A DNA stretch of 64,000 bases, from positions 13,755,001-13,819,000 of the forward strand of contig NC_060026.1 in the NCBI RefSeq assembly GCF_021134715.1, read 5' to 3'. This DNA is from Daphnia pulex. Taxonomy: Eukaryota; Arthropoda; Branchiopoda; Diplostraca; Daphniidae. The position numbers and the translations under genes were made by a program. Of the stretch, positions 11,501 through 63,798 are shown piece by piece. Each line of letters opens with the position of its first letter. Positions within the stretch are counted from its first letter, which is position 1. The notes under the pieces were generated by a model. The model ran no database searches and was not told the origin of the DNA. It saw only the letters and a list, made by a program, of their open reading frames with translations.

Positions 11501-14140
<2,640 letters not shown>

Positions 14141-24412: not shown

Positions 24413-25637
24413 TACTGTAAATATGTTGGCAGCAATCGAACATTATTCGATCAAGTTGTCAAATTTTAATTGAAAATAAATTCGTTACAATTCAAATAAA
24501 ACAGTTTCGTCATTCAATTTTAAAGGCTTAAGGCTGGAACTTTTGTCATTCTTGTCACCTAAACAAATCATTTATAGGTTAGTAAAAATCGTCGTTTTGA
24601 TGTGGTTTTTTATTAATTTATTTACTTTTCGTTTAATGTGGATTTAGAAGACAATCGTCCAAGAAGTGGTTTACGCAACTTTAGAATTTTAATTGGCAAT
24701 TATTATATTATCACCGCCAGGTGCCCAGGTTGCTGTTTACGTCATCAATCGTTTTCGTCTGCAGTGCAAAATAGGGCCCTAAAGTTCGACGTGTTTATTT
24801 GAATTAGGCCACCATGTTAAAGTTCAACCATTAAACTGTGTTATTATAATGAGATGAGATTGTAGAGATTGACGTCGACGTAATCAGTGAAAATATATCA
24901 TCACCATTGAGCCCTCAAAATGTCGTGAATGACCGACCATGGCACTTTGCAAGATGGAGGAGATCCTACACCTGAGCCAAGGCCACCGACAATGAAAGAA
25001 AATAGGTAAAAACTTTTCTGTATCGGTCGCGAATTCAATTTGAACTGGAAATTGTCGGCAATCGTTTAATTCACTAACACGAAATGGTTTAATTTTAATT
25101 TTAATGTTGGTCTCTCAGAATGACAAATTGTTTTTTTTCCAAGTTTTAGTTTTCATGTTTTTTTTTACACAGAAGACAGTACCAATAGACCTTGTGTTAT
25201 AAACGTTATTTTTACAAAGATGAGGAGATTGTAATCGTTTCATCGTTTATTTTTTGTGCAATCGGCAAACAAATTGAAAAATTTAATGATTTTTTCGGGG
25301 GTGGGATCAAAACAAGTTTGACCTTCCCTTGATTTAGCAGATAGACGCGTGAATTTGTGTGCAGCGATGCGCAGCTATAAAGAGCGTGAAGCTGAAAAAG
25401 TTAATTTGAAAATTATAATCCATTGACGATTAATGAATTAGCTAATGAATCCCTCCCCCCATTTCTAGTCTAGTTTCTCCCATTTTGTGAATCTGGATTT
25501 AATTGGCAATCAATATTGGCAATCAAAATCGGTTTTATCTACTTGTTGCGTCCAGAGTTTTGCAGATAGAAACTTGAAAATTAGTTATTGAATTTTCGTA
25601 AGATCTTTCCTTCCCTCTGGCATTTCCCCTAAAAGAT
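24413..25637. other. Intergenic region with repeats shared across the C1q cluster
   Basis: Holds TONSL polyadenylation signals, one copy of an exon-like plus-strand repeat (24856-25005), and from about 25230 a 3'-flank repeat that also lies beside the other C1q genes. No gene is supported. Confidence 0.6.
24856..25005 (+). repeat. Exon-like repeat, copy 1 of 3
   Basis: Begins gagattgtagagattgacg and ends just before a splice-donor-like gtaaaaac. Copies 2 and 3 (40792-40882, 41688-41851) end at gtaagaactt in the same relative place. In one frame copy 1 reads EIVEIDVDVIS then NDRPWHFARWRR; copy 3 reads EIVEIEVDVLIS then NKRPWHWTRCRK, so it may once have been coding. No family is recognised. 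Confidence 0.6.
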
Positions 25638-28394
25638 CTAACGGGACGCCTCAATATCCTCCTCCAGCAGAAAACCCGTGAAATGGGTCAAGCGGTCACC
25701 GTCGTCATGCAAAGAATACAAATACGAGGATAAACCATAATATTGAATCTGCACCCAAACTTGATCGCCCATTTTTAAGTTTAGCGTCGCCTGGACGGTC
25801 AACGGACTAAATTTATTGATGGCGTCCCTTTCCTCGCTAACAAAACTCGACCCAACTATATACCCGTTCAAATAAAGAGAGGAATAGAAATGATAAGGCG
25901 ATGAATTTGAAATACGCGCATGTCCCGTGAAAGAGAAATAATAAATTCCCGGTCGCGGTGCCGTGAATTTCCCCGTTTTCAAATCCATGGCGTTTCCCTC
26001 ATTCATCGCCTGCAAATCGAACGGAATTGGAGTGTTTGTTATTTTATATGAAGAATCTCTCGTGACTTGAAAATAGACGGGCGCCGATTTGACGTCGACG
26101 TATCCGATCCTCGTTTGGATTTCTGTAAAAAAAAAAAAATAATAATAAGACAATCATTAACATGTCAAATAAAAACACGTCGTACCATTTTCATTAGGAT
26201 AAAAGTCACAGTAAATTATTTCCATCTTCTTCGATCCTTTGACGGAAAAGAATCCGCTCAGTTTGTGCCCCATTCGCTGCAGGTCCGTGCACGAGGTTGG
26301 CATTTTACCAATGTCAACTATTTCACTCGTTCGCTCTATTAAATTCGAATTCTTTTAGTTTTCTCTTAGGAATTCTGATTTTCATTTCTTATTTTACCAT
26401 TTAATTTGGCCGCATAATCCTTAACGGTGAACACGGCGTTGCTCAAATCCATTCTGAGTGAGGCCAAAGTTGTTTTTGTTTTTTCAAAATCATTAAAGGT
26501 TGCTGAAATATTTCAATCGTTTAAAATTTAACCAATTTTACATACTTTAAAAAGTCATTGTACCTGAAAATTCTCTTTTCAGTTTTGCTTCACTGACTTT
26601 TAGTTCTTGACGTAATTGGTTTGAATTCACTACACAATCAAAGAAAACAAAATTTAATTATTTTTCAGTCGCTAAATTCATTAAAAATATGATTGCATTC
26701 AGAAATTTGTTAATTTCAGATAACAATAAAATATACCATTTAATTTTGAGTCGAGTTGTTTGGTTAAATCAGCCTTCGTTTTCACCCACTCCTGCTTATT
26801 CCCTGTAAATCACAACATTTCAATTCAGCTTTCTTATCAATTCTTAACTAGTTCAAAATACCTTCACATTTTTTAGTCAATTCGTTCTTTGTTTTAAACA
26901 AGTCGTTTATGGTGTTGTCTAAGCGATTAGAAATAGCTGCAATCCAATTCCATTTGTTAATAAAGTACGTAATCAAATATTTCGTCTTTCTCTTTTCAAA
27001 CCTTTCAGTTGGTCCTTTAAATTTTTCTGTTCGGCAGTGTCAGTGACAGGGAATTCTGCTGCCTGTTCCATAATTTTGATTGGTGCCGACAGTTCAGCGG
27101 TCGTGTAACTGATAAGAACGTTGCGATCCTGAAGCGATTGTTGATCACGAAATTTGTCCAAATTGATTCTGCTCAGTTGCATCGGTTTGGGCACGAATTT
27201 GTCTCCATTCCATTGGACGTGACTTCTACTTTCTTGTAGTAATTTTTCAGCGTCTTCCTTCACTTCAATTTTTAACTGGCCGTAACTATCGGAATCGGTT
27301 GCCATTTTCTTTGAAATGACTGAACTGATTCTGCCCACGTCAGCCCAACTATTTGGGTCAGAATTGTCGGCTTCTTGAAACATGTCAGTCAGTTTCCTTT
27401 TAGTTTCCGTGTCCATTTTGTTGATGATTCCATTTAAAGTTTTCGTCGTTTTATCCGGCCGATAATTGTCGTCATTCCAGAAAACAGAGTCCCACTTTTT
27501 GTCGCCTTGGTCTTTGATGGTCGTCGTGGATGTGACCAGCAAACCTTTTAAAGTAATTAAAATTTGAGATTCCGTTTCGGGAGACGCAATCTCCGAGTCG
27601 TCTAATGTGTCCATTCGAATTTTGTTAGCCATTTCCGTCAACATTTTTTTCTCATCGCTGGCCGTCAGAAAAACTTCTTTTTTGTCTTCAAATTTCTGTA
27701 AAAGAGTCGAGACCAATTGACCGGAAGTGACGCTGTCGATGGTGAAGGTCGCCTTTTTGGGTGGATTTGACGCCTGCGATGACAAGCTGTACAGGAGTTT
27801 GAAATGGTCAAATTGTTTGGGATTTGATCGCATTTCGTTGGCCAGATCGTCGCAGATTTTCTGATCGTAACACGACAGCGAAAGTTTCAGGGTTTTGCTC
27901 TTGTCATAGTTCGTCCAAACTGGCGATAGCGTATAATCGGATGTGGGTGTGTTACTGGTGAGAATGACCTTCTCCAAGGGAATGACTCTCACTTTATCAT
28001 ATTTGATTTCTTGACTAAGGAATTCGCTCAAATATTTCATAACTTCATTTTGAACTTTGTCGTTCCACATTTCAACGCTAAATCTCACCTCTGCTTGCTT
28101 CATCGCTTTGTTGAAAGAACTAACGGCACTTTTGTGGTCCAGCAGCGCGAGAGGAGAGTAGTAAAACTTTTTCTGGCTGATATCAGTTGTCGTTGCCTTT
28201 CCATTGTTGGCGTGTTCGTAAATCTCAACGAGAAAGTTGCCGTACACCATGGACATTGACGGATCGGGTAAGATTTGGAGTTTCTCCCATGAAGAAGATG
28301 CACCGCTTCTTCCGTCCCTTTGGCAGTTACAGCAAGCGACCGAAACAAATAAAATGGTTAAAATGTACCTTATCGATTTCGTAGCCATTTCCAT
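25638..28394 (-). CDS. Secreted coiled-coil protein with C-terminal C1q domain, copy A, 779 aa
   Basis: Predicted secreted protein of unknown function. Minus-strand exons in order: 28394-27002, 26936-26862, 26802-26737, 26629-26564, 26502-26398, 26335-26186, 26122-25638. Every intron is phase 1, so exons can be added or lost in frame. Residues 1-25 are a signal peptide (ILTILFVSVACCNC). Residues about 30-460 form a domain I do not recognise, with FYYSPLALLDHK, EMWNDKVQNEV and LSLSCYDQKICDD as landmarks. Four small exons encode a charged heptad-like coiled coil. The 50-residue exon (MPTSCTDLQRMGHKLSGFF, then YCDFYPN) resembles the start of fibrinogen-like or fibrillar-collagen C-terminal domains. 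The last exon is a C1q domain (APVYFQV, NEGNAMDLKTGKFTAPRPGIYYFSF, LTHFTGFLLEE). C1q domains usually trimerise and bind ligands, so a lectin-like role is inference. Confidence 0.9.
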
Positions 28395-28505
28395 CCAAGA
28401 ATGAAAAGAAACTTATTTGTAAATGAGGCCCGGGACCAGTATTCGTTTCCTTGACACTTTGGAACGAACTTTTCAAACTGAACGGGAACTCACGAATTTC
28501 TGTGT

Positions 28506-28511
28506 ATTTAT
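28506..28511 (-). promoter_or_regulatory. TATA box of C1q gene A
   Basis: TATAAA on the minus strand, about 112 bp upstream of the start codon. The same flank upstream of gene B (shared aaactgaacgggaactca) has lost this motif, reading cattcatgcag at the matching place. Confidence 0.6.
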
Positions 28512-28675
28512 ACAGACATTCGAATTTTCCAGCGTTTCGACATTGCGTATGCAAGTGCGGTGGGTTCACGATTAAATTACTTCTTTATTTATTATTCGGT
28601 TGCGGGATCCGGCATCAAGTGGAAGACTAAACAGAAGTGTAATTTAATATTCCTGGTGAAGTATAGTACGAGTAA

Positions 28676-29390
28676 CGTATATTTCGTGTGTAGCAACACA
28701 TTTTTCGTCTACTGTTGATTAGTTTGTTGCCCAAATCCACCAAATCCAAACGTCTCATTCCAAATCGTATGGTTAAATTTGATAACCGTAGCTCGTTTGT
28801 TTTTAAAAAATAGCCGAGTACTGAATTCCCAGAAATAAATATTGCTCAAAATGAACTGCTTCAAAGTTCAATCTAGGGTTTGGGGATCTCAGTTTTTCTT
28901 TAATTTTTCTAACTTTTTTTCTCAATTTTTCTCTATTTTTTATGTGAAGAATTTCGAAAAATTCACAAAAAAATGGAAAAACATACAGACAAATAAAAAA
29001 TAAGAAATTTTCGAAATCAATTCACATAATAAATTAATAACACGACCCCGTAGACGATAAAAATATGTAGGCCCCGAAACACTTGAGCCGATATTCGCTA
29101 GAATTTCATGATTTTATCGACACGAATGTCGCCGTATAAGTTTTTGAAACTGAATACTTACTCATCTTATATAGAAAATCCGAAGGCAGACTTGTTTTTT
29201 CCAATGGTCAATGTGCAAGTCCAACTTCGAGTAGACGATAAAACAGAAATGTGATTTGATATTCCCGCCGAGATTCTGTAAACAGAACATTCCAAACATA
29301 CAAACACGATCTATGTATTTTTTTAAACCCGATACGACATACAAGAAAAAAAAATACGTGGAAATATAGAGAATTAGAGAAACCATACCG
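28676..29390. repeat. Non-coding tandem duplication, copy 1
   Basis: About 715 bp closely matching 29626-30366. Shared landmarks in order include tatttcgtgtg, ccaaatccaaacgtctcatt, gatagccgagtactgaattc or its near match, aatctagggtttggggatct and cccgccgagatt. No open frame is conserved between copies, so it is probably non-coding. Part of it resembles the upstream flanks of the C1q genes. Confidence 0.85.
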
Positions 29391-29625
29391 TTTATGCAAG
29401 CAGGCCTATGTTGAAAACAACTGGATTCTTAGTTCTTTGGCCATTCCATTTTCTTTGGCCTAAATGGTTAACTCACTGGCCTAAACAAGATCGTATTTCC
29501 TTTCCTTGGCCTAGTTGGTTATTTTTACTGACCGGACTAAATAACTTAAATCACTTAATCACCGGACTAGACAACTTATAGACACGTTGACATTTGCTTT
29601 ACATTTACATTATCATTTACATTTG

Positions 29626-30366
29626 CTTATATTTCGTGTGCAACCAAAAATTTGTTGTCTACTGTTGATTATTTTGTTGCCCAATTCAACCAAATCCAAA
29701 CGTCTCATTCCAAATCGTATGGTTAAATTTGATAACCGTAGCTCGTTTGTTTTAAAAAGATAGCCGAGTACTGAATTCCCAGAAATGAATATTGCTCAAA
29801 ATGAACTGCTTCAAAGTTCAATCTAGGGTTTGGGGATCTCAGTTTTTTCTTTAATTTTTCTAACTTTTTTTCTCAATTTTTCATTTGAAGGATTACGAAA
29901 AATTGTAAAGAAACTAAAAAAAAACAACAACATACGAACAAAATAAGAAAAAAGAAATTTTGAAATCAATTCACATAATAAATTAATAATGAAACGGGTA
30001 TACCTTATACCCCATAGACGATAAAAAATATGTGGGCGCAGAAACACTTGAGACGATATTCGCTAGAATTTCATGATTTTATCGACACGGATGTCGCCGT
30101 ATAATAAGTTTGAAACTGAATACTTATATTCATCATCTTATATTGAAATCCGAAGGCAGACTTGGTTTTTCCAAGGGTCAATGTGCGCACACGAGCCCAA
30201 CGTCGAGTAGACGATACAACAGAAATGTGACTTGATATTCCCGCCGAGATTGTGTAAACAGAACATTCCGAACATACAAACACGTTCTATATATTTTCTT
30301 TTTTAAAAACCCGATACACGTACAAACAAGAAAAACAAATTGCGTGGAAGATTAGAGAAACTATAG
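29626..30366. repeat. Non-coding tandem duplication, copy 2
   Basis: Second copy of the 28676-29390 unit, in the same orientation, separated by about 235 bp of sequence rich in ttggccta and accggacta motifs. Confidence 0.85.
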
Positions 30367-32079
30367 AATATGCCACCCATTTCAAACTAAAATTAGTTTG
30401 GTATGGAAGAAAGTTTTTTTAACCTACCGAACTGCTATGATGCATTTTTTTATATAGCAGATTATTGTGCTCTACATTCTATGCGATTTCAACACCGACG
30501 TTTTTGTTGCTGTCATATATGTTATGACGGGACGTGTCTGTCATGGCAGTTTTGTTTAAATATTTAAGTTGTTTTTCATAATTTACCGATAAGTTCTTGG
30601 GTAAATTTAATGAATTTTCTTTAAAAATGATCGGCGTTATATTTTACTTTACTAACGTGTTCAAATTTGTCCTATTTTCATCATATCTTAGAGGCTACCC
30701 GAAAGGACCCATGGTCACATACCGATATACCAACAGCCGGCTTTTTCTGCTTAAATTTTCATGATGCAGGTAACAGTTGCGTGATTAAGTATTATCGAAA
30801 TGGTTCTCAATTATCGCGTGACATGTTATCTTTAGGTTCAACACAATCATCTGCCTACTATTGAAGTTGATAGATCATATCGCTAACCCTGGCATAGACA
30901 ACCTTGAGCCAGTCCAGCCTTTAAATTCTTCCATCAAAGTTCAGAAAATGTAAAATGCGTAATTTTTTATTTGTTTAATGTATCAATTCTTTTATAGGGA
31001 AAGTTAAGCAAGTTGCTCATCATCATCATGTTCATCATCGTTTTCATCTTCATCATCTCTCGACTGATCTCATCTTCTGGACAACCTAGAAAACCTCATG
31101 TATGTCACCGTATATGTAAGTTTGATTGTCATGTTATTTAATTACAATTGGTTTTGATAACTCTTTGTTCTTGATTTATCCATTTAGGTTATGACTGAGA
31201 AGATGCAACCAAAACTGCCATCAGCCTATTATAAGAAGTTCGTCGGCATCTCTACATAAACGTGGATCATCAATTGGCGATGACGAACAACCTGCATACA
31301 ACATGTTCAGCTGCGGATCATCCTTTGTTGTTGGTAATATGTTTTCGTTAGTTAACCCGTTGGCTCCCACGCCTTTGTTCCCCCATGTTTTAGCTCTGTA
31401 GCACGGGCCCGCGCTGTTCGGTCTCGTGGTTTATTTGCCGCGGGGTCGGACAGTTGCACCAGCCCCAGATTCGCCGAAAGGCCCTGTTAGGCAATGCACC
31501 ATAGGGACTTCCCCCTTGTCGATACGGTGATGGATTCTAGAGGTTGTGCATTCCATCTTCTCCTGTCACCGTGTCAGCCCGGACTTGTCAGCTAATGGCA
31601 AGTCCCACATTGGTCATATCAAAATGGCAATCAAAATTGGTGTTCTTCTTGTTGATCGAAATAGACAAAAAGAGTCTCAGACCAAGTACTGTCAGTCAGT
31701 GAGGAGGTACAACAACAACAACTCTGCCGGTGATTGGCAAAAACGCGACCTCTCTTCTCTCTCTCTTTCTCAATATTTTCCCATCTTCTTCCCCGTAACT
31801 TGTGAACACACGGCGGATCAAAACGGCCTTGATTGCTGGCCCAACTCTCTCTCTCGGATCGATCGCACCATCTATGGGCAAGCGAAAAAACGTTTGGGAA
31901 ATTTCGACTACCCGCGTTTTCAGTTTGTCTCTATCCGTTCAAATCGTTGAAAATGGCCTCAATTAAATGGCCCTGCATGCCACTCTCTCTCTCTCTGTGT
32001 CCGTCCAATTGCTCCTTTTATTTCGGCACACAGAGATCAAAGTGACGGACAAACGTCGTCTTCTTGTCCACCACTCGTC
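30367..32079. other. Non-coding stretch with GC-rich insert
   Basis: No gene supported. A short CAT-rich tract lies at about 31017-31060. From about 31364 to 31600 the sequence turns markedly more GC-rich than its surroundings, which suggests an inserted element, but I see no terminal repeats or coding motifs. Confidence 0.45.
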
Positions 32080-32220
32080 CCCTTAAAGAATTGGAAACGA
32101 ACGAGTTTATCTTCCCTTCCCCAAATTTTCGTGTCGACGTTCATTTTGCGAATTTTTGGTTCGTGTCGCCCTGAAACTCAAAGGGACGCCAAAATTTCCT
32201 CCTCCAACATGACCCGTGGT
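32080..32220 (-). pseudogene. Truncated 3' end of a C1q gene
   Basis: Closely matches the 3' end and flank of gene B (33766-33910): shared ccccaaattttcgt, tcgacgttcattttgcga, and the last coding bases tcaaagggacgcca and atttcctcctccaacatga. The match stops at about 32220, so only the final few codons of a C1q domain and its 3' flank remain. Confidence 0.8.
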
Positions 32221-33770
32221 TTACAACTGTCTCTTATTTAGTTATTTTCAACTTTTCTTTGCTTGGTATTTGTTTCTGTAAATATTTCTCGTAACTCATC
32301 TTTGAAATTTTGTATTTAGATAACCAGCATCCCGTTTAATTGGAGAAACTTCCAGTGTCGGCCGAGTTAAGGATCTCTTCGATTCCCTTTTCTTTAAATG
32401 TCCTCGTGTACGCCCATGCGAGTTTTGGTGTATTCACGAGGACTCCCTTTTATACCTATCCCGCCTGGTGGAGTCAACTTTTCAGCGGATGGATGGAGTA
32501 CCTGTGGATGGATAGTTGGATACCTGGCAGTATTTCCCTGGTTAAAAGGTAGGACAAACTCATCTCTATTCTTCCTTTTTGACAATTTTTGACAAGATGG
32601 CGTTGATTTTAAATCGTCATGTAATACGGAGTACGATTACTCCTGGGCTAGGCAGTTGGCTGAAACTTTTTTTCTTTGCCATTTTTGTTTTTCTCAGTCA
32701 GGGTTCATTTAATAGCTCACGTGAAGCACAACTGCAGATCAGGCCTTGTTTTTGTACCTCACAACTTATTTGTCTGTGGGCAGAAAAATTTGAACTTGAA
32801 ACACTTGAATCAAAGTGCAACTTGAACTATTTTTTTTTCACCAAGAAGGTCTCCTTTTGCTTTTTTTGGTTAATGCTCAACTATTAAATTTCTTGTTAAA
32901 GTTTATTTGACATTTTGTTTTGGCCGATAAATGGTTTGTGCAACTGAATATCACAAACAATATTGGACACTTAATCATTTTAATTGGCTATTTTATAATA
33001 TTATCACCGCCATCAGGTTATTTTTTACTTAATCTAATTGGTTTCCTCTGGCGAAGGCGAAGACATTTTCTCCCATATCTGAAGCGCCTATTATAAATTT
33101 GGCAATTAAAATCTGTTTTCTCCCTGTTGCGTCTACATTTTTTCAAATAGAAATTTCAAATTTGATTAGTGTATTCAGTAAGTTATTTTGCATCCACAGT
33201 AAAATTTTCGTCAAGAAATTCACATCCCTTAACGAATTGGAGTCTATTCAACTATCTTCCCCTTTCTTCTTTTTTTCCGCCGTGACTGTGAAGAGGAAAT
33301 AATTTGAACTAGTTGAAATCAAATTAAAATAGTGGAATACCTTCACTAAAGATAAACGAGATGTGTAGACGCCTCGTTTTCGTGTTGATTTCAAACGAAA
33401 TTTAAAATAACAAAATAAAATTAATTTTTATATCTGGCAATCAAAATGAGTTTTTCACGTCTCCTGCCCTTATTTTTAGAGATAGACACGCGAACTTTTC
33501 GGGACGTGTGCACAACTGAAATGCGAATTCATCAGTAAAATAATTATTTGAAAATTGTAAATGAATTAAACTCGAATGAATTTTCTCCCATTTCAAGGCC
33601 TTCCGTTTTTTGTCAATCTGGCAATTAAAATTGGTTTTTTGTTCATAACGTCTAGAGTTTTGCATATAGAATTTTGAAACTTGGTTAGTGTATTCACTAA
33701 GTGAAATTGCATCTACAATTCAATTTTGGTAAAGAAATGGCAAATCCCTTTATGAATTGAAAACGAATTA
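32221..33770. other. Repeat-rich 3' flank of C1q gene B
   Basis: Contains no supported gene. From about 33000 it carries the 3'-flank repeat shared with 25230-25620, 41220-41500 and 42000-42770 (landmarks tggcaatcaaaat, gtctagagttttgca, gaatgaattttctccca). Confidence 0.55.
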
Positions 33771-33771
33771 G

Positions 33772-33777
33772 TTTATT
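33772..33777 (-). terminator. Polyadenylation signal of C1q gene B
   Basis: AATAAA on the minus strand, about 80 bp past the gene B stop codon. Confidence 0.55.
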
Positions 33778-33857
33778 TCCCTTCCCCCTTAAAATTCCCC
33801 TCCCCAAATTTTCGTCTCGACGTTCATTTTGCGATTTCGGATGTTGAACCCAAAACC

Positions 33858-36800
33858 TCAAAGGGACGCCACAATTTCCTCCTCCAACATGAAACCCGTG
33901 TAATGGGTGTGGTGGTATTCGTTGTCAAGCAAATACGCGGATGAACCAGAATAATTAATCTGCACCCAGAGTTGATCGCCTTTTTTCAAGTTCAGTGTCG
34001 ACTGAAGGGTCAACGGACTCCATTGATCAACGGAGCCCTTCTTCTCTTGAACAAAACTCATCCCGATTAGATTCCCGTTCAAATAAAGAGAAGAATACAA
34101 ATAAATAGAAGATGATTCAAGACGCGCCACTCCCGCGAAAGAGAAAAAATAAATTCCCGGTCTCGGGGCCGTGAATTTCCCCGATGTCAAATTCATGGCA
34201 TTTCCCTCGTTCACCCGCGTCAACTCGAACGGAATCGGAGTTTCTGTTTTGTTAAATTCAGAATTTCTCTGGACGTAGAAATGGACGGGCGCCGATTTGA
34301 CGTCGGCGAATCCGATCCATTTCTGCTTGTCTGTACAAACAAAAAGATTTGGATGAACAATAACAAATAAAATTAAGGCTCGTTATACCATTTTGATTAG
34401 GATAAAAGTCACAGTAAATCATTTCCATCTTCTTCGATCCTTTTACCAAAAAGAATCCGCTCAGTTTGTGCCCCATTCGCTCCAGATCCCAACAGGAGGT
34501 TGGCATTTTACCAATGTCGACTATTTCACTCGTTCGGGCTTTCAAAAAGCAAACTTTTCTTAGGAAACTTCTCTCTTAGGAATACAAATGTTTAATTATT
34601 TAATTTTACCATTTAATTTGGTCGTCAAATCCGCAACGGCCGACTTGGTGCTGCTCAATTCCATTCTCGTTGAGGCCAAATTTGTTGTTGCAGTTTCCAA
34701 ATCATTTGAAGTTGCTGAACCAATTCGTTCGATCGTATTGAAACAAGTTTATAAATTTAAAGAAAATGAATAATACCTTTAAGTAATTTTCTCAGATTGT
34801 CTTCGGCAGTTTTTAGTTCGTAACCAAATCGTTGCGAATTCGCTGCACAAACAGAAAACTAAATTAATTTCGTTTGTTTTTCAGTCGTTGCGAGAATTGA
34901 GAAAGGTATTTAAATTGGGACCATAATTTAATTGTTCAATATAATAATGAAATAACGATTAGTTAGAAACTCTATAGATTTAATCTCTCTTCTCTCTCTC
35001 TTATGAAAACAATTTTTATTTATTTTACCTTTTAATTCGGTCGCCAAATGCGAAACGGCGGACTTGGTGCTGTTCAATTCCGTTCTCGCTGAGGCCAAAT
35101 TTGTTTTTGCAGTTTTCAAATCATTTGAGGTTGCTGAACCATTTCATTCATGTAAACAATTTCACATATTTTTAAAAGTTAATTTGTACCTCTCAGATCT
35201 CTTTTCAGTTTTTCTTCGGTGACTTTTAGATCTTGACGTAATTGGTTTGAATTCACTACACAATCAAAGAAAACAAAATTTAATTGATACAATTTTTCTC
35301 AATTTCGTTCAATATTCGTATTAACATTTACTTTTGAGCTCAGTTGAAATATTCCCGGCCGTTATTTTTGTCTCTGCCAATTCTTTTTCGGTCGCTAAAT
35401 TTATTGAAAAGGTTTTAGCTTTCAGATTTTATCTGATTTTTAATTTTAAAAAAGGTAAATACTCTTTAATTTTGAAGATAAACCATCGAGGTTTTTGGTT
35501 AAATCAGCCCTCGTTTTCACCAACTCCTTTTTAGTCTCTGTATTAATAAAAACACAATCAAATGGAATATTTTAAGGCATTAAGAGATTGTAGATTGCAA
35601 GAATAAAAATTATTTTGAATACCATTTAATTGGGAAGACAAATTATTGACGTTGGCCTTCGTTTTCTCTAACTCCTTTTTAGTCCCTGCACACAGCATTT
35701 TAAATGCAGTTTTCGCCAAATCATAGTACGGTAAATAATTCAAAATACCTTCTAATTTATTATTTGTAATAGTTAAATCGTTCTTTGCATTCCTCAGTTC
35801 GGTATTTGTCTTCACCAAGTTGTTCACAGTTGTATTTAAGAGTTCAGTAGTGGCTGAAATTCAATTACAATAATAAATTAATAATTTAATGTATTTATTT
35901 TGCAAAATTTACTTCAAAAACCTTTAAGTTCCTCCTTTAAATTGTTCCATTCGTCGGTGACAGTCAATTCTGCGTGTTCTACAAATTTGATTGGCGCCGA
36001 TAGTTCAGCGGTCGTGTAACGGACACGAACGTTGCGATCTTGAAACGATTGAGAATCACGAAATTTGCCCAAATTGATTCTGCTCAGTTGCATCGGTTTG
36101 GGCACAAATTTTTCTCCGTCCCATTGGACGTGATTTCTACTTTCTTGTAATAATTTTTCAACGTCTTCTTTTGAATTTTCGACTCGCCGTGAACTATCGG
36201 AATCGTTTGACAATTTCCCTGAAATTGTTGAACTGATTCTGTCCGCGTTAGCCCAACTGTTTGAGTCGTAATTGTGTTGGATTCTTTCTTTGTTGTCCAT
36301 TTTTCTGTCATATTCATCTGAATTTTTCTTTGCATTTTCCTTCCTCTCGTTTTGCTGATCGGTATTGTGCGTGTGACTATTATTGGTCGCAATTTTCACG
36401 TCGTCATCAGAGCCGACGCCATCGACGGTGATATCAGTGTCATCTCTGCTGGTTGTCGATTTGTCATCGCGAGTTTGATTGCGACTAAATTGTTCTTGAT
36501 GAGTTGCTTGTGATCTTCGCATTTCCTTTTCATTTGCATCTTTCGATTGATTTTCGCGACGAATTTGTTCCTCTCGTCTTTTCTCCTCGTCTTTATTACT
36601 CGAAGTTAATTTTTCTATTATTTCCGCTTGTTTCTCCGATTTTTGAAACAAGTCCGCCAATTTCTTTTGAGTTTCCTTGTCCACTTTGTTTATGATTTCA
36701 TTTAACGTTTTCGTCGTCTTGTCCGGCCGGTAATTGTCCTCAATCCAGAAAACAGAGTCCCACATTTTGTCACTTTGCTCTTTGATGGTCGTCCTGGATG

Positions 36801-37644
36801 TGACCAGCAAATCTTTTAAAATATTTAAAATTTGAGATTCCGTGTCGGGAGACCCGACCTCGGAGTCGTCAAATGTGTCCATTCGGATGTTGGTGGCCGT
36901 TTCCGCCAACATTTTCTTCTCGTCATTTGCCGTCAGAAAAATTTCTTTTTTGTCTTCAAATTTCTGTAAAAGAGTCGTGAACATTTGACCGGAAGTGACG
37001 CTGTCGATGCTGATGGTCGTCTGTTTGGTTTGCGACGTCTGCGATGACAAACTGTACAGGAGTTTGAAATGGTCAAATTGTTCGGGATCGGATCGCATTT
37101 CACTGGCGAGTTCGTCGCAGATTTTCTGGTCATAACACGACAGAGAAAGTCGCAGAGTTTTGCTCTTGTCATAGTTTGTCCAAACTGGCGATAGCGTATA
37201 ATCTGTTGCGGGTGTGTTACTGGTGAGAATGACCTTCTCCAAGGGAAGGACTCTCACTTGATTAGATTTGATATGATGACCGACGACTTCATTCAAATGT
37301 TTTACGACTTCATTCTGGACTTTGTCGTTCCACATTTCAATGCGGAATCTCATCTCTTGTTGTTTCGTCACTCTGTTCAATCTACTAACGGCACCTTTGT
37401 GGTCCAGCAGCGCCAGAGGAGAGTAGAAATATTTTTTTTCGCTGGCTGTCGTCGTTGCCTTGTGATTATTGGCGTGTTCGTAAATTTCAACGAGAAAGTT
37501 GCCGTACTCCATGGAACTTAACGTGTCAGGTGAGATTTGCAGTTTCGCCCAAGAAGAAGAACCGCCGGGGTTGTCCAATCGGCAGTTGCAGCAAACGGCA
37601 GTAAAAAATATGACGAGGATGCACTTCATCGGTGTAGTTGCCAT
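33858..37644 (-). CDS. Secreted coiled-coil protein with C-terminal C1q domain, copy B, 997 aa
   Basis: Paralog of the gene at 25638-28394. Exons in order: 37644-35922, 35853-35749, 35685-35623, 35537-35463, 35394-35332, 35255-35190, 35133-35029, 34842-34777, 34714-34610, 34538-34389, 34330-33858; all internal introns are phase 1 and the frame is open. The signal peptide ends near VCCNC. The unrecognised N-domain is highly similar to copy A but carries an extra block of about 110 very charged residues (KRREEQIRRENQSKDANEKE and onward) just before SNSWANADRISS. The coiled coil uses eight small exons instead of four, including a repeated 66 nt + 105 nt pair. The fibrinogen/collagen-like exon (MPTSCWDLERMGHKLSGFF) and C1q exon (GIYFFSFAG, HTHYTGFMLEEE) match copy A. 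Probably secreted and multimeric; function unknown. Confidence 0.9.
34777..35133 (-). repeat. Duplicated coiled-coil exon pairs within gene B
   Basis: The exons at 35133-35029 and 34714-34610 (105 nt each) are near copies (shared TSNDLxTAxTNLASxRxEL pattern). Each lies just downstream of a 66-nt exon (35255-35190; 34842-34777) containing the related NSNQLRQDLKV or NSQRFGYELKT. Gene A has only one such 105-nt exon. The pair was therefore duplicated inside gene B. Confidence 0.85.
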
Positions 37645-39429
37645 TTCCGTTCGTTTTATCGACACTTTGACGTTTAAACTGAACGGGAACTCAAGAATTA
37701 CTGGGCATTCATGCAGAAAAGTTTAACAAACTCACTCGACTGGGTTTGTGTTCGGCAGCAGTGCTTGTACAAGGTTCGCGATACAAACTTATTTATTTAT
37801 TTTTCGTGTGCGCGATTAAAGTCCAGCATCGAGTGGAAGACTACAGAAATGAAATTTAATTCCTGGCGAAATTCACATTTTTATTTTTGTTTTTTTTTTA
37901 AACTAAAACGAAACATATTTTTGTGTCTCATTCGAACTGGGTTTTTCCAGGGTTTTTCCGTTTCGGCCAATTTTAGCCACCGCCTCGAGAGTCGAAAGAT
38001 AGAAAAATAGTGTCTTTTGATAGTTCCTCCAAGGTTTTATAATCCTGCGTATAAAACAAGTTCACGATTCTTTAAAACGCAATATATAACCAATCAATTA
38101 AACAAGCTAGCAGATTAGATAAATTTCGAATGCTACACATTTAAATGTAAAATCAGTTTTTTTTTAAGTTGCCACACCAACTGATTTCTACCCGCGACCT
38201 AAAGGCGCACCCAAAGCAAGTTATAGATAATGATCTGCTACATAAAATTATTTGTTGCTTGTGAACCTATCCCGCATACCTAAATTGCTGGATCAACTAT
38301 TTTTCATATCAATTTTTTTATCAGATATTCTAAAGACATTTCAACATTTGTTTTGTTTGGCATCTCATTTCTAAATTAACAAATGAATCTGCCAGGTTAA
38401 CTTTAAAATCTCCCCTTCGTTTGCATCACTTTTCGTCGTTCATTCGGCGAATTCAAATAGAAAGCGATGCCAACTAGGAGGTAGAGACGACGAAGAGCCC
38501 CGAAAAATCGAATTTATTTCGGCCTAGATGAGTGGCGAATCGCGTGTTTAATTGGGAATTGGGAGCATTTTTTTAAATTTTATTTTTAAATGGGACTCGA
38601 CGACCAAACAAAAACTCTCATAAATATTTGGCGAATATCTAAAACATTTAAAAAACCTAAGTTTGGTATACCTTTTTTTCCCCTGGGGGGAAAAAACGAC
38701 ACGCCATATGTTTCCTTTGTCTGGCTATATTTTCGGGCCGAATTGGCGGCTATTTGATCTAATCTGACATTTGCAATATAACAGCAAATTGAATCGCCCC
38801 GTGACCCCGTCTATAGCTGGGCAATTTCCCGTTCTGCCACTATATACACTGTTTATTGTTACTGCAATTGTTATGTCCTGGTCACTTCATTTTCATTGTC
38901 GTGGGTGGCAAAACCGCCGCTGTTACTTGTCACTTTTCTTTCTAATTTGGCTAAACGAAAGTTCCTTATTAGCAAATTTCTTATAGTTGTCAATAACAGT
39001 AGAGAGCCAAGACAGGAGGAGGTCCTGTTAATGTTGTTCGTCGGCCGATATCGATTGGGTCGCCGTTCTCGTGAGAAAAGATCGTTATTACACACAACAG
39101 CCCCGTCGAATCCATTCTAGGCAAAGCCAAAGCATTTTACCTTATTGGTTTTTGACAAAAGCCCATGAAAATGTTTGGCTTAGTTGATTCCAAAGGCTTA
39201 CATGTTGTGTTTGTCGTTGTATAATGAAAAACTGGACGGCGTGTGTATAAAATACAGCGCCACAAAAATATTTATCGGCTACTGGCGGTGTGCGCAATCA
39301 AAAACCTTTGAATTGTATTGGCAAATATTCTTGAGATGTGTCAACTCCGTCACTGAAACAAGTGTCTAGAAATGGAAGTTAAATTTTAGTTATTTTGTGA
39401 ATCCATTTTAAAATCGCAATCAGCATACC
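37645..39429. other. Upstream flank of C1q gene B and spacer
   Basis: The first 230 bp resemble the upstream flank of gene A (shared aaactgaacgggaactca, and gagtggaagact in both). The remainder holds no supported gene. Confidence 0.55.
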
Positions 39430-40105
39430 GTCGTTAAATTGAGACTTACATTCAAGTCGTAAATGATTAAATTTTTCTGGGTTATCACGTATTTGATTCC
39501 TCATTCGATTGCAATCTTCCGGTGTCGGGCAGATCAAGCTAAACCTAAGTGCATTGTCATGCGGAATCCAATCATTAGTCAGTGAGAAATCAGCAGATTA
39601 TATTTTGCTGGTCAGCCTGACACTGTCGTAAGGAAGGACTTTCACTTGACTGGACTCGATCTGTTGACTGAGGGATTGTTTAAGGTGTTTGGCCACTTTA
39701 TTTCTGACTTCTTGATTCGAAGGTAAAAAAATTGACGTAGAGTTGAGGGACCGTTTCGTTGTGAATAGGAACGACATTCTTGTGCTGTAGGATAGTGATT
39801 GGCGAGTAGTAAAAGATTTTCTTATTGTTTTTAGTTATTTGACTGTCGTAAATGTTGATACAGAAGGACTCGTGCTGCACGGAGGAAATTTTAATCGGCA
39901 CCGGATTTTTCCGTTGGGACGGTGCGAAGAAGCCGATCAATTGAGGTTGAGATGGAAATAGTTACAGGAACTGGCGATTCCAATTCTGAAGAAGCAATGC
40001 CGATCAGAAAAAGAGCCATCACAACTACCAGTTGCCATGACAACGAAATGCTCATCTGTAATTGCCATTGAAATTTTCCAATCATGTCAGTTTTGATGGC
40101 AAGGA
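39430..40105 (-). pseudogene. Broken N-terminal-domain paralog of the C1q cluster
   Basis: Homologous to the N-domain of copies A and B but decayed. Aligned segments are KKIFYYSPITILQHKN (A: KKFYYSPLALLDHKS), NQEVRNKVAKHLKQSLSQQ (A: NDKVQNEVMKYLSEFLSQE) and ALRFSLICPTPEDCNRM (A: TLKLSLSCYDQKICDDL). It has a frameshift near 39910-39940, a second near 39715, and an in-frame TAA after LTSKI. A plausible signal peptide (LVVVMALFLIGIASS) remains at the 5' end. No coiled-coil or C1q exon follows. Divergence is much greater than between A and B, so this is an older copy. Confidence 0.85.
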
Positions 40106-40791
40106 TGATTATGTTAATGCTAGTTATGTAGTACATTTACAATTATTTTTTAAAATACGTATTTACTACCTTTGAAATAGAACGTCGATCTTTTGGCGTG
40201 TTTCGATGAACAGCAGCTGAAGATGTGACGGTAGAAACTGAAGGTGAAATTCCATGAAAGTTTTGTGATGCGATGGGCTCAACCGCCAAGCAGCTCATTT
40301 TTTTTTGTCTCGTTCGTGCAGAGCAAATTAATATTCACGGTCACTCACCAGCGCCTGCAAGCGCCTAAGGAAATTGAAACCTCCCAACCAAAGCCAAAAC
40401 CACGACTTATTCCTGCCCCTTGATCCACCCACCACCCATCTCCAGAAGACGGTCTGTACCAGAAATTAAATGCGTACATTATCCTTGCAAAAAACGTGAA
40501 ACAAAATTACCGCAACAAAATACTCGTAGCTTTTAAAAAATTGAAGAAAGGAAAGAAATAAAAAGACTGGGGTTTTTGCTATTTTCCAGTTTATTTACGT
40601 TTTAAAATTGGCATCGCCGCATCGCGGTTCTAAATGTTCGTCTACAAATCAAAATCAAAAATGGTGTGTCGTTAACTCGTCAAGTCGTTAAGTTAAGAAA
40701 TAGTTAGGCCACACACTGTGGGTCTGCCAACTCTGTTCACAGTTTTGTAAATTAAAGTTGAACCCATTTAATTGTTTGTTTACAATTAGAA

Positions 40792-40882
40792 GAGATTCTG
40801 GAGATTGACGTCGACGTAATAAGAGGAAGTTATTTTGGCCACCTGAGCCAACATCACCCGACATCAAAGTAAAAGACAGCAG
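40792..40882 (+). repeat. Exon-like repeat, copy 2 of 3
   Basis: Shortest copy; begins agagattctggagattgacg and ends at cagcag before gtaagaactttttgtacctg. It opens with EILEIDVDVI in the same frame as the others and then diverges. Confidence 0.6.
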
Positions 40883-41687
40883 GTAAGAACTTTTTGTACC
40901 TGTCGCAAATTTTAATTTCAATTGACAGTTGCCGACTGATTACGTGCCCCAAATTCGCATTAGCAATCGTTTCATTAAATTGAATGTAGGTCTGATGACA
41001 TTTTCTTTTCAGCGGCCGTTGCTTTTTCGTCATTTTCACACCGTGCGAATAGATAGCGCGTCTGTCCATTTCTTGCCGCGGGTGAAATTCACATTTTGCC
41101 AATTTAAACGGGAAAAATAAAGAATATTAACGAAATGCGTAGACAATCAAACCGTTTTATTCTCGTGTTGATTTTATTAAATTTCGAGCTGCGATAGGAA
41201 AACAAATTGACAAATTTTAATTTTTTGGAGGAAAATCTGGTAATCAAAATGAGTTTTTCCGCCGTTCAAGTTCAAGTCCCCCGCCGTCATTTTAAAGATA
41301 GGCAAATTTGTATTCAGCCATGAAGAAACTGTAGTGCGCGTTTAAGAAAAGATTTTCGAAAAATTCCAATCCGTAAATGGATTAAGAGGCGAATGAATTT
41401 TATCCCATTTCTAAATGTAATATGTAAATCTAAATCAAAATTGGTTTTTTACTCGTCACGTCTACATTTTTGCATATAGAAACTTATTTTATTTGAGAAT
41501 CAATTTTATTTAAGAAATGAAAAAGCATGTTTTTTTGGGGGGTTTTGCTGATTTTCGTCTGCACAAATTAAAACTGAAATTCGTTTTAAATCTCGTCAAG
41601 TTAAGAAATTGTTTGCCCACAAGTCTGCCAAAAACTCAGTTCACAGTGTTGTGTCAAAGTTGAAACCATTTATTTGATTGATTCTAG

Positions 41688-41851
41688 TGAGATTGTGGAG
41701 ATTGAAGTTGACGTATTAATCAGCAGAGGATACAAATCACAGTTGATCCCACAAGAGACCGTGAATAAACGACCCTGGCACTGGACAAGATGCAGAAAAT
41801 TCCAATCACTTGAGCCCACACCAGAGAAAGTCATAAAAATGGAGGCAGCAG
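41688..41851 (+). repeat. Exon-like repeat, copy 3 of 3
   Basis: Longest open copy, ending ggaggcagcag before gtaagaactttttgtacctg. It lies about 0.9 kb past the 3' end of the minus-strand gene at 42776, on the opposite strand. Confidence 0.6.
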
Positions 41852-42775
41852 GTAAGAACTTTTTGTACCTGTCGCGTAATTTCAATTGTGATTTTTTGGC
41901 TGATGACGTGCCCGATTGGAATGATTGATTCGCACGAAATGATTGAAATGAAATGGTTTTTCATTTCTTTTTTTTAATGGCCGTTTTTCACAGCGAACGA
42001 ATAACCAGTTTCGTTCTCGTTTTTGATTTGATTTAATTTGAGCTGCGATAAGTAAATAACCTTTTTAAAATCTGGCAATCAAAATTGATTTTTAACTTGT
42101 CCCGTCCACATTTTCACAGTTAGAAACTTGAAAATTTGTTTTTGCATTCAAAATGTTTATTTCTATCCACAGTCAAATTTTCGTCACGAAATTCTCACCG
42201 CTTAACGAATTGGAGTCGATCGAATTTCCTCCCCTATTCTTTTCCTATCCTGCGTCCATGAGAAGGAAATAATTAAATTGGAGGATTGTGAAAAGCTTCC
42301 TTTAAGATTAACGAAATGCGTAGGCGTGTTGTTTTCGTGTTTATTTAAGCTGAATTTAAAAATGAAAAATAATTTTTTTATCTGGCAATCAAAATGAGTT
42401 TTCAAGTCCCCTGCCCTTGATTTTAGAGATGGACATGTGATTTTTGTGGACGAGTGCACAATTCATATGCAAATTCATCAGTAAAAAAATAATCTGGAAA
42501 TTCTAATCCGTAAATGAATTAGAGGCGAATGAATTTTCTCCCATTTCTAGTCCACCCTGCATTTTGTAAATTTGTAAATCAAAATTTGTTTTTTTATGGT
42601 CGCGTCTAGACTTTTGCAGGTAGAATTTTGAAACTTGGTTAGTGTATTTACATCCATTGACAAATTATAGTACAGAAATTTCTAGTCCTTAATGAATTGG
42701 AATCCAATGTATCTCTTCTGTTCCACCTAAAAATTCCCTCCCCCAAATGTTTCATGTCGCCGATTAAATTGAACC

Positions 42776-44705
42776 TCAAAGGGACGTGGCAATTTCCTCC
42801 TCCAACATGAAACCCGTGAAATGGGTAAAGTGGGAACTGTCGTCAAACAAATACGAAGATGAACCCTCATAATCAATCGTCACCCAAAGTTGATCGCCTT
42901 TTTTCAACTTCAGCGTCGACTGGACGGTCAACGGACTGAATTGATCAACGGGGCTCTTATTCTCGGATATACCACTCCTCCCGATTACATTCCCGTTCAA
43001 ATAAAAATTAGAATCAAACCAAGAATAAGATGAAGATAAAAGGCGCCCCCGGCCCGCGAAAGAGAAAAAATAAATTCCCGGTCGCGGTGCCGTGAATATT
43101 CCCGATGCCAAATCCATGGCATTTCCCTCGTTCACAAGCGCCAAATTGAACGGAATTGCACTTCCAATTGTGGAAAATGAATCATTTCTCTGGACGTAGA
43201 AATGGACGGGCGTCGATTTGACGTTGACGTATCCAATCCATTTTTGAAAACCTTTTCATCAATTATAGAATTAGATAATTGCAACTGAATAATTCGTGAG
43301 AATTTGAAACATTTACCCGCATCGTCCGGTAGTTTAGTGAAATCGCAGTAAACGGATTCCATTTTCGCCGATCCCATGACGGAATAAAATCCGTTCAGGG
43401 TGTGGCCAATCAACCACAAATCCTGGCACGACTTTGGCAGTCCAGTCAAAGTCACTAATCCGGTGCACACGAGTCGGCCAAGGGTGTGGACGCCGGATGA
43501 AGTTTCCAGTTGAGTTCGTCCGAAATTCAATCGAGTGACGGGCAGAACATTTTTGTCGGTAATGACACCTGCAAACAAAATTAATTTTATAAATTTTAAT
43601 TCTGTACAAACGTGTGAATCGTAACGCACCGTCGTCGACTAATTGAAGTGGTGCAAGAGCATCGCAATTGCATTTCGCCGCAGGATCGACGCAATTTCCA
43701 TCAATTCCGCACTGGCAGGTGTGAACTCCGTCCGTGTTATTTCCGGCCCAAAAATATTGTGGATTTCCCTCTCTGTCGTTCCACCAGGAATAAGCGACGT
43801 CATTTGACTCGAATGGGGCATAGTTGCAGTCGTACTAATAATAGAATTAAGAATTAAAAATGTTAAGAATTAAACTGATCAACGAAAACTGACTCTAATC
43901 GACTGGTGGCATTCAGTCGATAATTCCATCAAAGCTTTTATTTGTCCCATTGACGAATTGTAGTTGATGGAGCGTGAATAGCAACCGGCATCGGCGCAGT
44001 GTCCCACATTTAAAGAAGATTCACTATCGTGTAGAACTGAGGTCGATCCTGTTTTTATGGAAAGATAATGAATCAGATCTTTAATTGAAAATTTAGCTAT
44101 TTTAAACTTTTTGACCTGATGTCATATCGCAGTAAACGTAAATTGGATCATCGCCGACACCTTGTCCGTCCGGATCGATCCAGTGCATTCCGGATGAAAG
44201 TGAAGGATCGGCCGCACGAAGTTCTCTGCATGTCCTTGGGATTCCACTCCTTCCATTTGATTGAATTGAAATTTCTTTATTAATTGGAAATAATTTTGAA
44301 TCAGCGGAAACCGGAAGTTCAGCCGCTTCTAACAAGGAAGTTAAAATTCTTTCTTGCTCCTGAATTTTGACTTCTAGTTGGACATTTTTGGCCTCTAATT
44401 GTATTACTTTCAATGTCAAATCTTGTCTTAGTTCATTCTGTCATAGAAAAGCAAAAGTGTTTTACCCACACTGAAACTCTGAATTAAACTAACAACAGTA
44501 GACTTACATTCAGTTCGAGTTGCGCCTCTAGTTGTGTCACCTTTTCTTCAAGTTGAGCATTTTTAGCTTCAATTTTGGCTTCTAGTCTCAGTTCTAATTC
44601 TTGCAGTTTATCTTCCAAGGAAAATGTGGTAAGAGCAGAGGAACAAATTGCCCCGCAACTCAAAATCAGCAACATCAAACCCCAATAGACTGTCAAACGA
44701 CCCAT
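42776..44705 (-). CDS. Secreted protein with neurexin-IV/collagen-like module and C1q domain, copy D, 535 aa
   Basis: Exons in order: 44705-44508, 44437-44116, 44048-43894, 43834-43630, 43568-43317, 43251-42776; phases close. Residues 1-24 are a signal peptide (WGLMLLILSCGAI). A Glu/Leu-rich coiled coil covers about residues 25-110. A full fibrinogen-like module of the type seen in neurexin-IV/CASPR and fibrillar-collagen C-propeptides follows: RTCRELRAADPSLSSGMHWI, DPIYVYCDM, MGQIKALMELS, CQCGIDGNCVD, KCNCDALAP, VLPVTRLNFGRTQ, HTLGRLVC. A second short module (LPKSCQDLWLIGHTLNGFY, YCDF) matches the one in copies A and B, then the C1q domain (APRPGIYFFSFAG, HFTHFTGFMLEEE). It lacks the large N-domain of A and B. 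Likely an extracellular multimeric binding protein; function unknown. Confidence 0.88.

Positions 44706-52321: not shown

Positions 52322-58820
<6,499 letters not shown>

Positions 58821-61522: not shown

Positions 61523-63798
<2,276 letters not shown>

Follow-up and report, generated by a model that had tools for sequence, protein, structure and literature searches.

What kind of protein is encoded by a run of C1q-tipped genes in the crustacean Daphnia pulex, and do the two ends of these proteins evolve under the same pressures? The question arises from a 64-kb window of DNA (13.755-13.819 Mb of contig C10, NC_060026.1, in a genome of 133.19 Mb on 13 contigs), to whose first letter the positions below refer unless given in Mb. 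Within it a span bounded precisely by the stop codon of gene A and the ATG of gene D (25638-44705) holds three intact genes, A, B and D, all on the minus strand. A and B combine a domain of about 430 residues, here called the N-domain, with a coiled-coil stalk, a two-cysteine module and a C-terminal C1q head, and gene D carries the latter two elements on a COLFI-like body. Our comparisons support strong diversifying selection on the C1q tips of this family (ω, the ratio of nonsynonymous to synonymous rates, of about 5 at 12-22% of codons), whereas the N-domain is constrained. Selection of this strength on the tips favors a role in recognition, and we consider it reasonably probable that A and B are secreted two-ended recognition proteins belonging to a large germ-line-diversified family, the likeliest ligands being microbial or parasite surface molecules. 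Red Queen coevolution has one of its foremost models in Daphnia and the parasites that infect it, although which molecules recognize the parasites is not settled. A C1q family with tips diversifying at common positions and a conserved front supplies concrete candidate molecules and residues.

Selection on the C1q tips and the N-domain

Codon site models, implemented in our own code, were fitted to paralogues of this one genome. Across 66 pairs from 12 genes the median pairwise ω was 0.30 for the N-domain and 0.77 for C1q. For the C1q heads of 11 genes bearing an N-domain (N-type; L001, L004, L006, L007, L008, D and one partial head were left out), model M0 gave an ω of 1.07, and M2a assigned 21.8% of 149 codons to a class with ω of 4.8 (likelihood-ratio test statistic, LRT, 145.6); when columns near gaps were dropped, this class comprised 15.1% of 124 codons with ω of 5.7 (LRT 137.9). 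A wider set of 17 heads, which omits two distant heads, one duplicate and one partial head, returned an ω of 4.7 at 11.6% of codons (LRT 210). The N-domains of the same 11 genes, together with one gene whose C1q was only partly fetched, had an M0 ω of 0.36. In a held-out test, columns picked for variability in half of the 17 heads had a median ω of 2.19 in the other half (5-95% of 40 random splits, 1.69-3.12) against 0.59 for the remaining columns, and the chosen columns were not short of synonymous change.

A second set, disjoint from the N-type one, was made up of 18 D-type heads, that is, heads without an N-domain match of their own upstream in our list (16 hand-picked among the best-scoring C1q matches, plus D and L006; the body was read for D only). 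These tips yielded an ω of 5.2 at 13.6% of codons (LRT 256); without columns near gaps the values were 5.6 and 14.2% (LRT 211). The comparison of M8a with M8 gave LRTs of 130 and 248 for the N-type and D-type sets respectively. Twenty-two of the 25 selected D-type sites are among the 31 selected N-type sites (hypergeometric probability 3e-16). After removal of position 135, where only A carries a residue in the joint alignment, the shared sites in the numbering of the A tip (25638-26120, minus strand) are 24, 26-29, 38, 67, 71, 77, 81, 88, 91, 93, 95, 97, 104, 124, 126, 128, 140 and 142. Over these 21 sites all 31 tips are distinct, with a median difference of 17 of 21 positions; Arg, Glu, Asn and Tyr are enriched there, a purely descriptive result given that the sites were picked for variability. 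Selected positions tend to alternate, as they would on one face of a strand, with 11 such runs in the D-type set against 3.2 expected and a weak excess in the N-type set (9 against 4.8, p 0.03). Going by the usual C1q topology, many of them presumably fall in strands D, E and G and the neighboring loops. In a tree with little resolution, heads on N-type and on D-type bodies are intermingled (7 label changes where the null mean is 10.3), a weak indication that heads have been exchanged between the two kinds of body.

Exon-built architecture of genes A and B

The exon models of A, B and D were built from the sequence alone. Gene A (28388-25638, minus strand; 7 exons, 777 residues) begins with an exon coding for a signal-like start and the N-domain (28388-27002), the long form of which occupies residues 30-460 (27009-28301). 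This is followed by four stalk exons (26936-26862, 26802-26737, 26629-26564 and 26502-26398), the exon of the two-cysteine module (26335-26186) and the C1q exon with the stop codon (26122-25638). Gene B (37644-33858, minus strand; 11 exons, 997 residues) has the same plan, with a linker insert in the N-domain of its first exon (37644-35922), eight stalk exons (35853-35749, 35685-35623, 35537-35463, 35394-35332, 35255-35190, 35133-35029, 34842-34777 and 34714-34610), a two-cysteine module exon (34538-34389) and a C1q exon including the stop (34330-33858). The C1q ends of A and B (PF00386; 70.3 and 65.2 bits), like that of D, score above the Pfam cut-off of 23.7 bits, and PDB relatives of the A head comprise adiponectin, cerebellin, C1q and collagen X. 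C1q heads normally trimerize, and those of A and B probably do so as well.

A preliminary description of the locus, made by reading the sequence without database searches, had proposed a coiled coil between the two ends, and this held up in a test of hydrophobic periodicity: the stalks show a period of 3.55-3.6 residues, and none of 500 shuffles matched its power in either gene. Equally, all 16 internal introns (6 in A and 10 in B) are in phase 1, as first noted, and have GT-AG borders, and every internal exon is divisible by 3 in length; stalk exons can thus be duplicated or lost without a frame shift, so that the length and reach of the stalk could change. Such a duplication is seen in gene B, where a pair of 66- and 105-nt exons is present twice (34610-35255, minus strand), with identities of 89% between the 105-nt exons, 65% between the 66-nt exons and 68% between the intervening introns (self-match of 34570-34869 with 34995-35285, 76%). 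From the phase-1 introns the preliminary description had argued for domain shuffling; exon modularity and, in gene B, exon duplication are the parts of that argument borne out here. The possibility that stalk exons represent whole heptads was rejected, as the 75 predicted exons include 24 whose length is a multiple of 21 nt, the others measuring 66, 75, 96 nt and so on, with the reservation that the predictor erred on A and B themselves and that its predictions in ten other genes are rough.

Ahead of C1q, A and B had been credited with a fibrinogen/collagen-like cysteine module. The 150-nt exon at this place does encode a two-cysteine module, shorter than but resembling the one before C1q in D; the COLFI assignment applies to D only, there being no match in the tails of A and B (Pfam, E up to 0.05). 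Collagen Gly-X-Y repeats were found neither in D and the tails of A and B (Pfam, E up to 0.05) nor in the N exons. By mean hydropathy alone, A, B and D start with a hydrophobic segment (best 19-residue mean 1.48-1.95), later stretches reaching at most 1.16, and the proteins are probably secreted.

The N-domain

The N-domain (residues 30-460 of A) was initially described as impossible to place, and it remains so: by sequence it has no accepted relative in Pfam, PHROG or PDB, and its predicted fold in A (predicted local distance difference test, pLDDT, 86.5) gave no significant match in PDB. The same was true of the predicted fold of the short form of the domain, for which the top Foldseek hits were mostly ribosomal proteins with E of 0.03-0.4. 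A weak Pfam match to HSL_N in 11 of 42 members (best 6.4e-4, about 70 residues; 13.8 bits in A and 14.9 in B against a cut-off of 25) was rejected because the matches are short and, for the displayed scores, under the cut-off. The EMI domain is absent both among the weak families returned for the N exons of A and B (two and one respectively, E up to 1) and among the 25 Pfam families listed for the 42 N-domain members. In prokaryotic and viral contigs there were 7 and 43 pattern matches respectively, with no relative of the N-domain confirmed. Six positions are invariant in the 42 aligned members (P50, L54, W79, C144, C150 and P161 in model numbering), the two cysteines being the only invariant ones. 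The N-domain hence adds a protein domain without a detected relative among solved structures.

A genome-wide family

The locus had been presented as a cluster. The genome survey corrects this view, in that the window contains only one part of a family whose loci are dispersed through the genome. Searches with the N-domain of A returned 116 matching stretches, and the best 92 of 99 candidates were scored; sorting by hand, with small fragments and additional pieces of genes already counted set aside, left 51 long loci. With 14 short loci, found with a short-form query, without stops and covering only about the first 170 residues, the N-domain loci amount to 65. The 10.3-16.34 Mb region of C10 alone accommodates 27 of the 51 long and 13 of the 14 short loci (40 of 65 in total), along with 81 of the 150 scored C1q exons; the remaining N-domain loci lie elsewhere on C10 and on C2, C3, C5, C7, C8 and C12. 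C1q exons number at least 150 genome-wide. Counts of C1q exons and two-cysteine modules are lower bounds because only part of the candidates was scored, namely the best 150 of 242 and 150 of 268 for C1q and the best 150 of 246 for the module.

The order of domains seen in A and B recurs across these loci. On the same strand and within 8 kb downstream of the N-domain, a two-cysteine module is present at 51 of 65 loci, a scored C1q exon at 38 and both at 35, with a C1q exon upstream at 8 of 65; of 150 two-cysteine modules, in turn, 99 are followed within 1.5 kb by a C1q exon, and one has such an exon upstream. The gap between the N-domain match and the module ranges from 118 bp to 4.9 kb (a figure that includes the rest of the N exon where there is a linker insert), as would be expected if stalks range from none to more than 12 exons. 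In a tree built from 31 N-domains, A and B do not pair as each other's nearest neighbors. Turnover in the family, also anticipated in the preliminary description, is evident from in-frame stops inside the matched stretch at 11 of the 51 long loci.

Several further features of the survey deserve mention. On C7 (2.412-2.438 Mb), five or more N-domain copies make up a 6.09-kb tandem array, and the matched stretch of every copy is interrupted by an in-frame TAA. Five N-domain loci are divergent (about 25-34% identity to A) and lie at 10.77 and 11.24 Mb of C2, 0.12 Mb of C5 and, in two cases, 13.01 Mb of C8; no scored two-cysteine module goes with any of the five, and a scored C1q exon follows downstream of one, on C8. 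As these loci are without a listed module and mostly without a listed C1q exon, some of them may be free-standing forms. Other numerous genes, mainly on C7, C8 and C10, encode Glyco_transf_10 (135 matching stretches) and Gb3_synth (34) domains, and WSC gave one match; fucosyltransferase and alpha-1,4-glycosyltransferase genes are reported from D. magna resistance loci.

Gene D, decayed copies and flanking DNA

Gene D (44705-42776, minus strand; 535 residues) consists of six exons (44705-44508, 44437-44116, 44048-43894, 43834-43630, 43568-43317 and 43251-42776) with intron phases 0, 1, 0, 1 and 1, and encodes the COLFI-like body (48.8 bits, cut-off 26.2), the two-cysteine module and C1q (52.5-56.3 bits). 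It had been described as having the end modules of A and B on a neurexin-IV/collagen-like body: COLFI and C1q stand, and the label "Neurexin-like" comes from a published study of Daphnia and has no Pfam result behind it. The C1q exons of B and D with their 3' flanks are 75% identical over 1,254 aligned columns.

One of two supposed decayed copies is clear. Copy C is a short-form N-domain exon (39379-40136, minus strand; match to an intact short form), of which the pieces 39731-39916 and 39454-39732 are in different frames and which has an in-frame TAA; no C1q piece of it was found between C and B. Of the other, 107 bp are left, comprising a C1q 3' end and its 3' flank (32112-32218, minus strand) and 84% identical to 33795-33900 at the 3' end of B. 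These decayed pieces share the minus strand with A, B and D, as originally stated for the whole cluster. A tandem duplication of about 0.7 kb upstream of A (28678-29373 and 29628-30359, 84% identical) is apparently non-coding. Furthermore, repeated segments recur in the DNA 3' of A, B and D and in the intergenic DNA near them (24817-25594, 33055-33759 and 40685-42704), which indicates that the duplications took in non-coding flanks. Outside the span are open reading frames that, reading by eye, we take to encode proteins like acetyl-CoA synthetase (7930-9873), succinate dehydrogenase flavoprotein (11899-14140), TONSL (19601-24412), KDM5 (52772-58085) and PAK (63463-63798).

Functional interpretation

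If A and B are indeed two-ended recognition proteins, the C1q end would be the variable tip. An eighth to a fifth of head codons appear to diversify at largely common positions, which would give each paralogue a different contact surface. The long N-domain, under mainly purifying selection, would be the constant end and would most likely bind a common host partner or effector, with the coiled-coil stalk of small phase-1 exons between the two. D-type genes would provide the same kind of tip without the N-domain, D itself with its COLFI-like body. The likeliest ligands would be microbial or parasite surface molecules, which would make humoral pattern recognition or opsonization the likeliest role. 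Immunity is thus our best guess for function, helped by the published links between D. magna COLFI-C1q genes and the bacterium Pasteuria that are taken up below. A more far-reaching possibility, which we put forward tentatively and think rather unlikely to hold as a whole, is that the 65 N-domain loci and at least 150 heads form an arthropod germ-line repertoire of constant and variable parts behind Daphnia-parasite specificity. A hypervariable C1q patch (about 21 positions, ω near 5) would then stand opposite the conserved N-domain, and body types and stalk lengths would be exchanged through recombination between phase-1 exons. If true, this would mean that an arthropod can inherit an extensive repertoire of recognition heads whose diversity is concentrated at particular positions.

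Several points weigh against the reading as two-ended recognition proteins directed at microbes or parasites. Diversifying selection also marks gamete-recognition proteins and proteins related to diet or predators. The N-domain has a small selected class of its own (1.4% of codons, ω of 3.2, LRT 15.2, p 5e-4). Selected sites do not differ significantly in hydrophobicity from their unselected neighbors (0.31 against 0.41, p 0.38), which leaves their surface exposure unproven. The agreement between N-type and D-type sites is not fully independent because both sets share descent; the null data sets used below were simulated from the N-type set only; and synonymous distance is smaller in C1q (0.32) than in the N-domain (0.47), gene conversion among paralogues being likely. 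The accessible text on the D. magna genes describes them as COLFI+C1q and does not mention an N-domain for them. Finally, C1q genes of D. pulex are enriched among those down-regulated by predator cues (PMC4514973), so that a purely antimicrobial role fits poorly.

The predator response also speaks for the best-surviving alternative, an improbable one on balance, under which these are extracellular, mucus or feeding lectins with tips that bind glycans of algae, diet or cuticle and a diversity that follows food or surface chemistry instead of infection. Under predator cues C1q, C-type lectin, fibrinogen-like and COLFI genes of D. pulex are down-regulated jointly (PMC4514973), and in a review the C1q-domain proteins of invertebrates are presented as one group of proteins that bind carbohydrates (PMC10672478). 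However, the few genes described as differentially expressed after Pasteuria exposure include one with partial COLFI and C1q domains (PMC4551569), and another COLFI+C1q gene, near the ABC and F Pasteuria resistance loci of D. magna, shows trans-species polymorphism; balancing selection is reported on one D. magna COLFI+C1q gene (PMC11193740).

We give distinctly less credence to an ordinary C1q expansion of the bivalve style, with apparent selection produced by relaxed constraint, misalignment or gene conversion. The paralogues do lie close together, and both the lower synonymous distance in C1q and the interleaving of heads in the poorly resolved tree would suit it. Relaxation, however, predicts ω near 1 rather than the observed value of about 5, the signal survives removal of columns near gaps, and disjoint gene sets lead to mostly the same sites. 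Moreover, in all 24 null data sets simulated from the N-type fit, 12 plain and 12 with two recombination breakpoints, the LRT was at most 6.8, against 138 for the real data. Comparably improbable are reproductive or self-recognition proteins (egg coat, mating) with tips diverging through gamete or clone recognition, as such proteins, which typically carry the same statistical signature, seem to come in far smaller sets than at least 150 C1q exons, and the published links concern parasite and predator exposure.

Relationship to known systems

Expansion of C1q in Daphnia is already known: the C1q InterPro term is assigned to 172 genes of D. pulex, whose Omcl23 "Neurexin/Complement C1q" family comprises 82 genes (PMC4514973). 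A 2026 paper refers, without displaying the data, to a conserved domain that frequently accompanies C1q in Daphnia (PMC13322756); this may be the N-domain described here. In the open-licence papers covered by our search we found no earlier study of selection across Daphnia C1q heads; to that extent the contrast in selection, the stalk built from exons and the description of the N-domain family with its domain order are new.

With regard to other animals, the layout of A and B resembles that of EMILIN and multimerin, in which an N-terminal cysteine domain and a long coiled coil precede a C-terminal C1q. They differ from these in lacking an EMI domain in the N exons by Pfam and in having only two invariant N-domain cysteines. 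Molluscan FREPs (fibrinogen-related proteins) are likewise germ-line diversified, with large paralogue sets and variable recognition domains, C1q here taking the place of their fibrinogen and immunoglobulin domains. Unlike collagen-tailed (type I) C1q proteins, A, B and D have no collagen repeat by Pfam. The Cladoceran-specific family CS1 of the Pasteuria F locus was rejected as a home for A and B: its members have 239-365 residues and a membrane span near the C terminus (PMC9894429), as against 777 and 997 residues without a later hydrophobic span. Gene D finds its counterparts in D. magna 11F-21.35 and related COLFI+C1q genes and in D. pulex Omcl23, which combine COLFI with C1q in the same way (PMC11193740, PMC4514973). 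Finally, A and B share with the bivalve coiled-coil C1q proteins (sC1q-like type II) a coiled-coil tail and C1q head, membership in a large, tandemly duplicated family and presumably secretion (PMC6835236); they differ in that a 430-residue N-domain precedes the stalk and a two-cysteine module is placed before C1q, and possibly also in the assembly of the stalk from small phase-1 exons.

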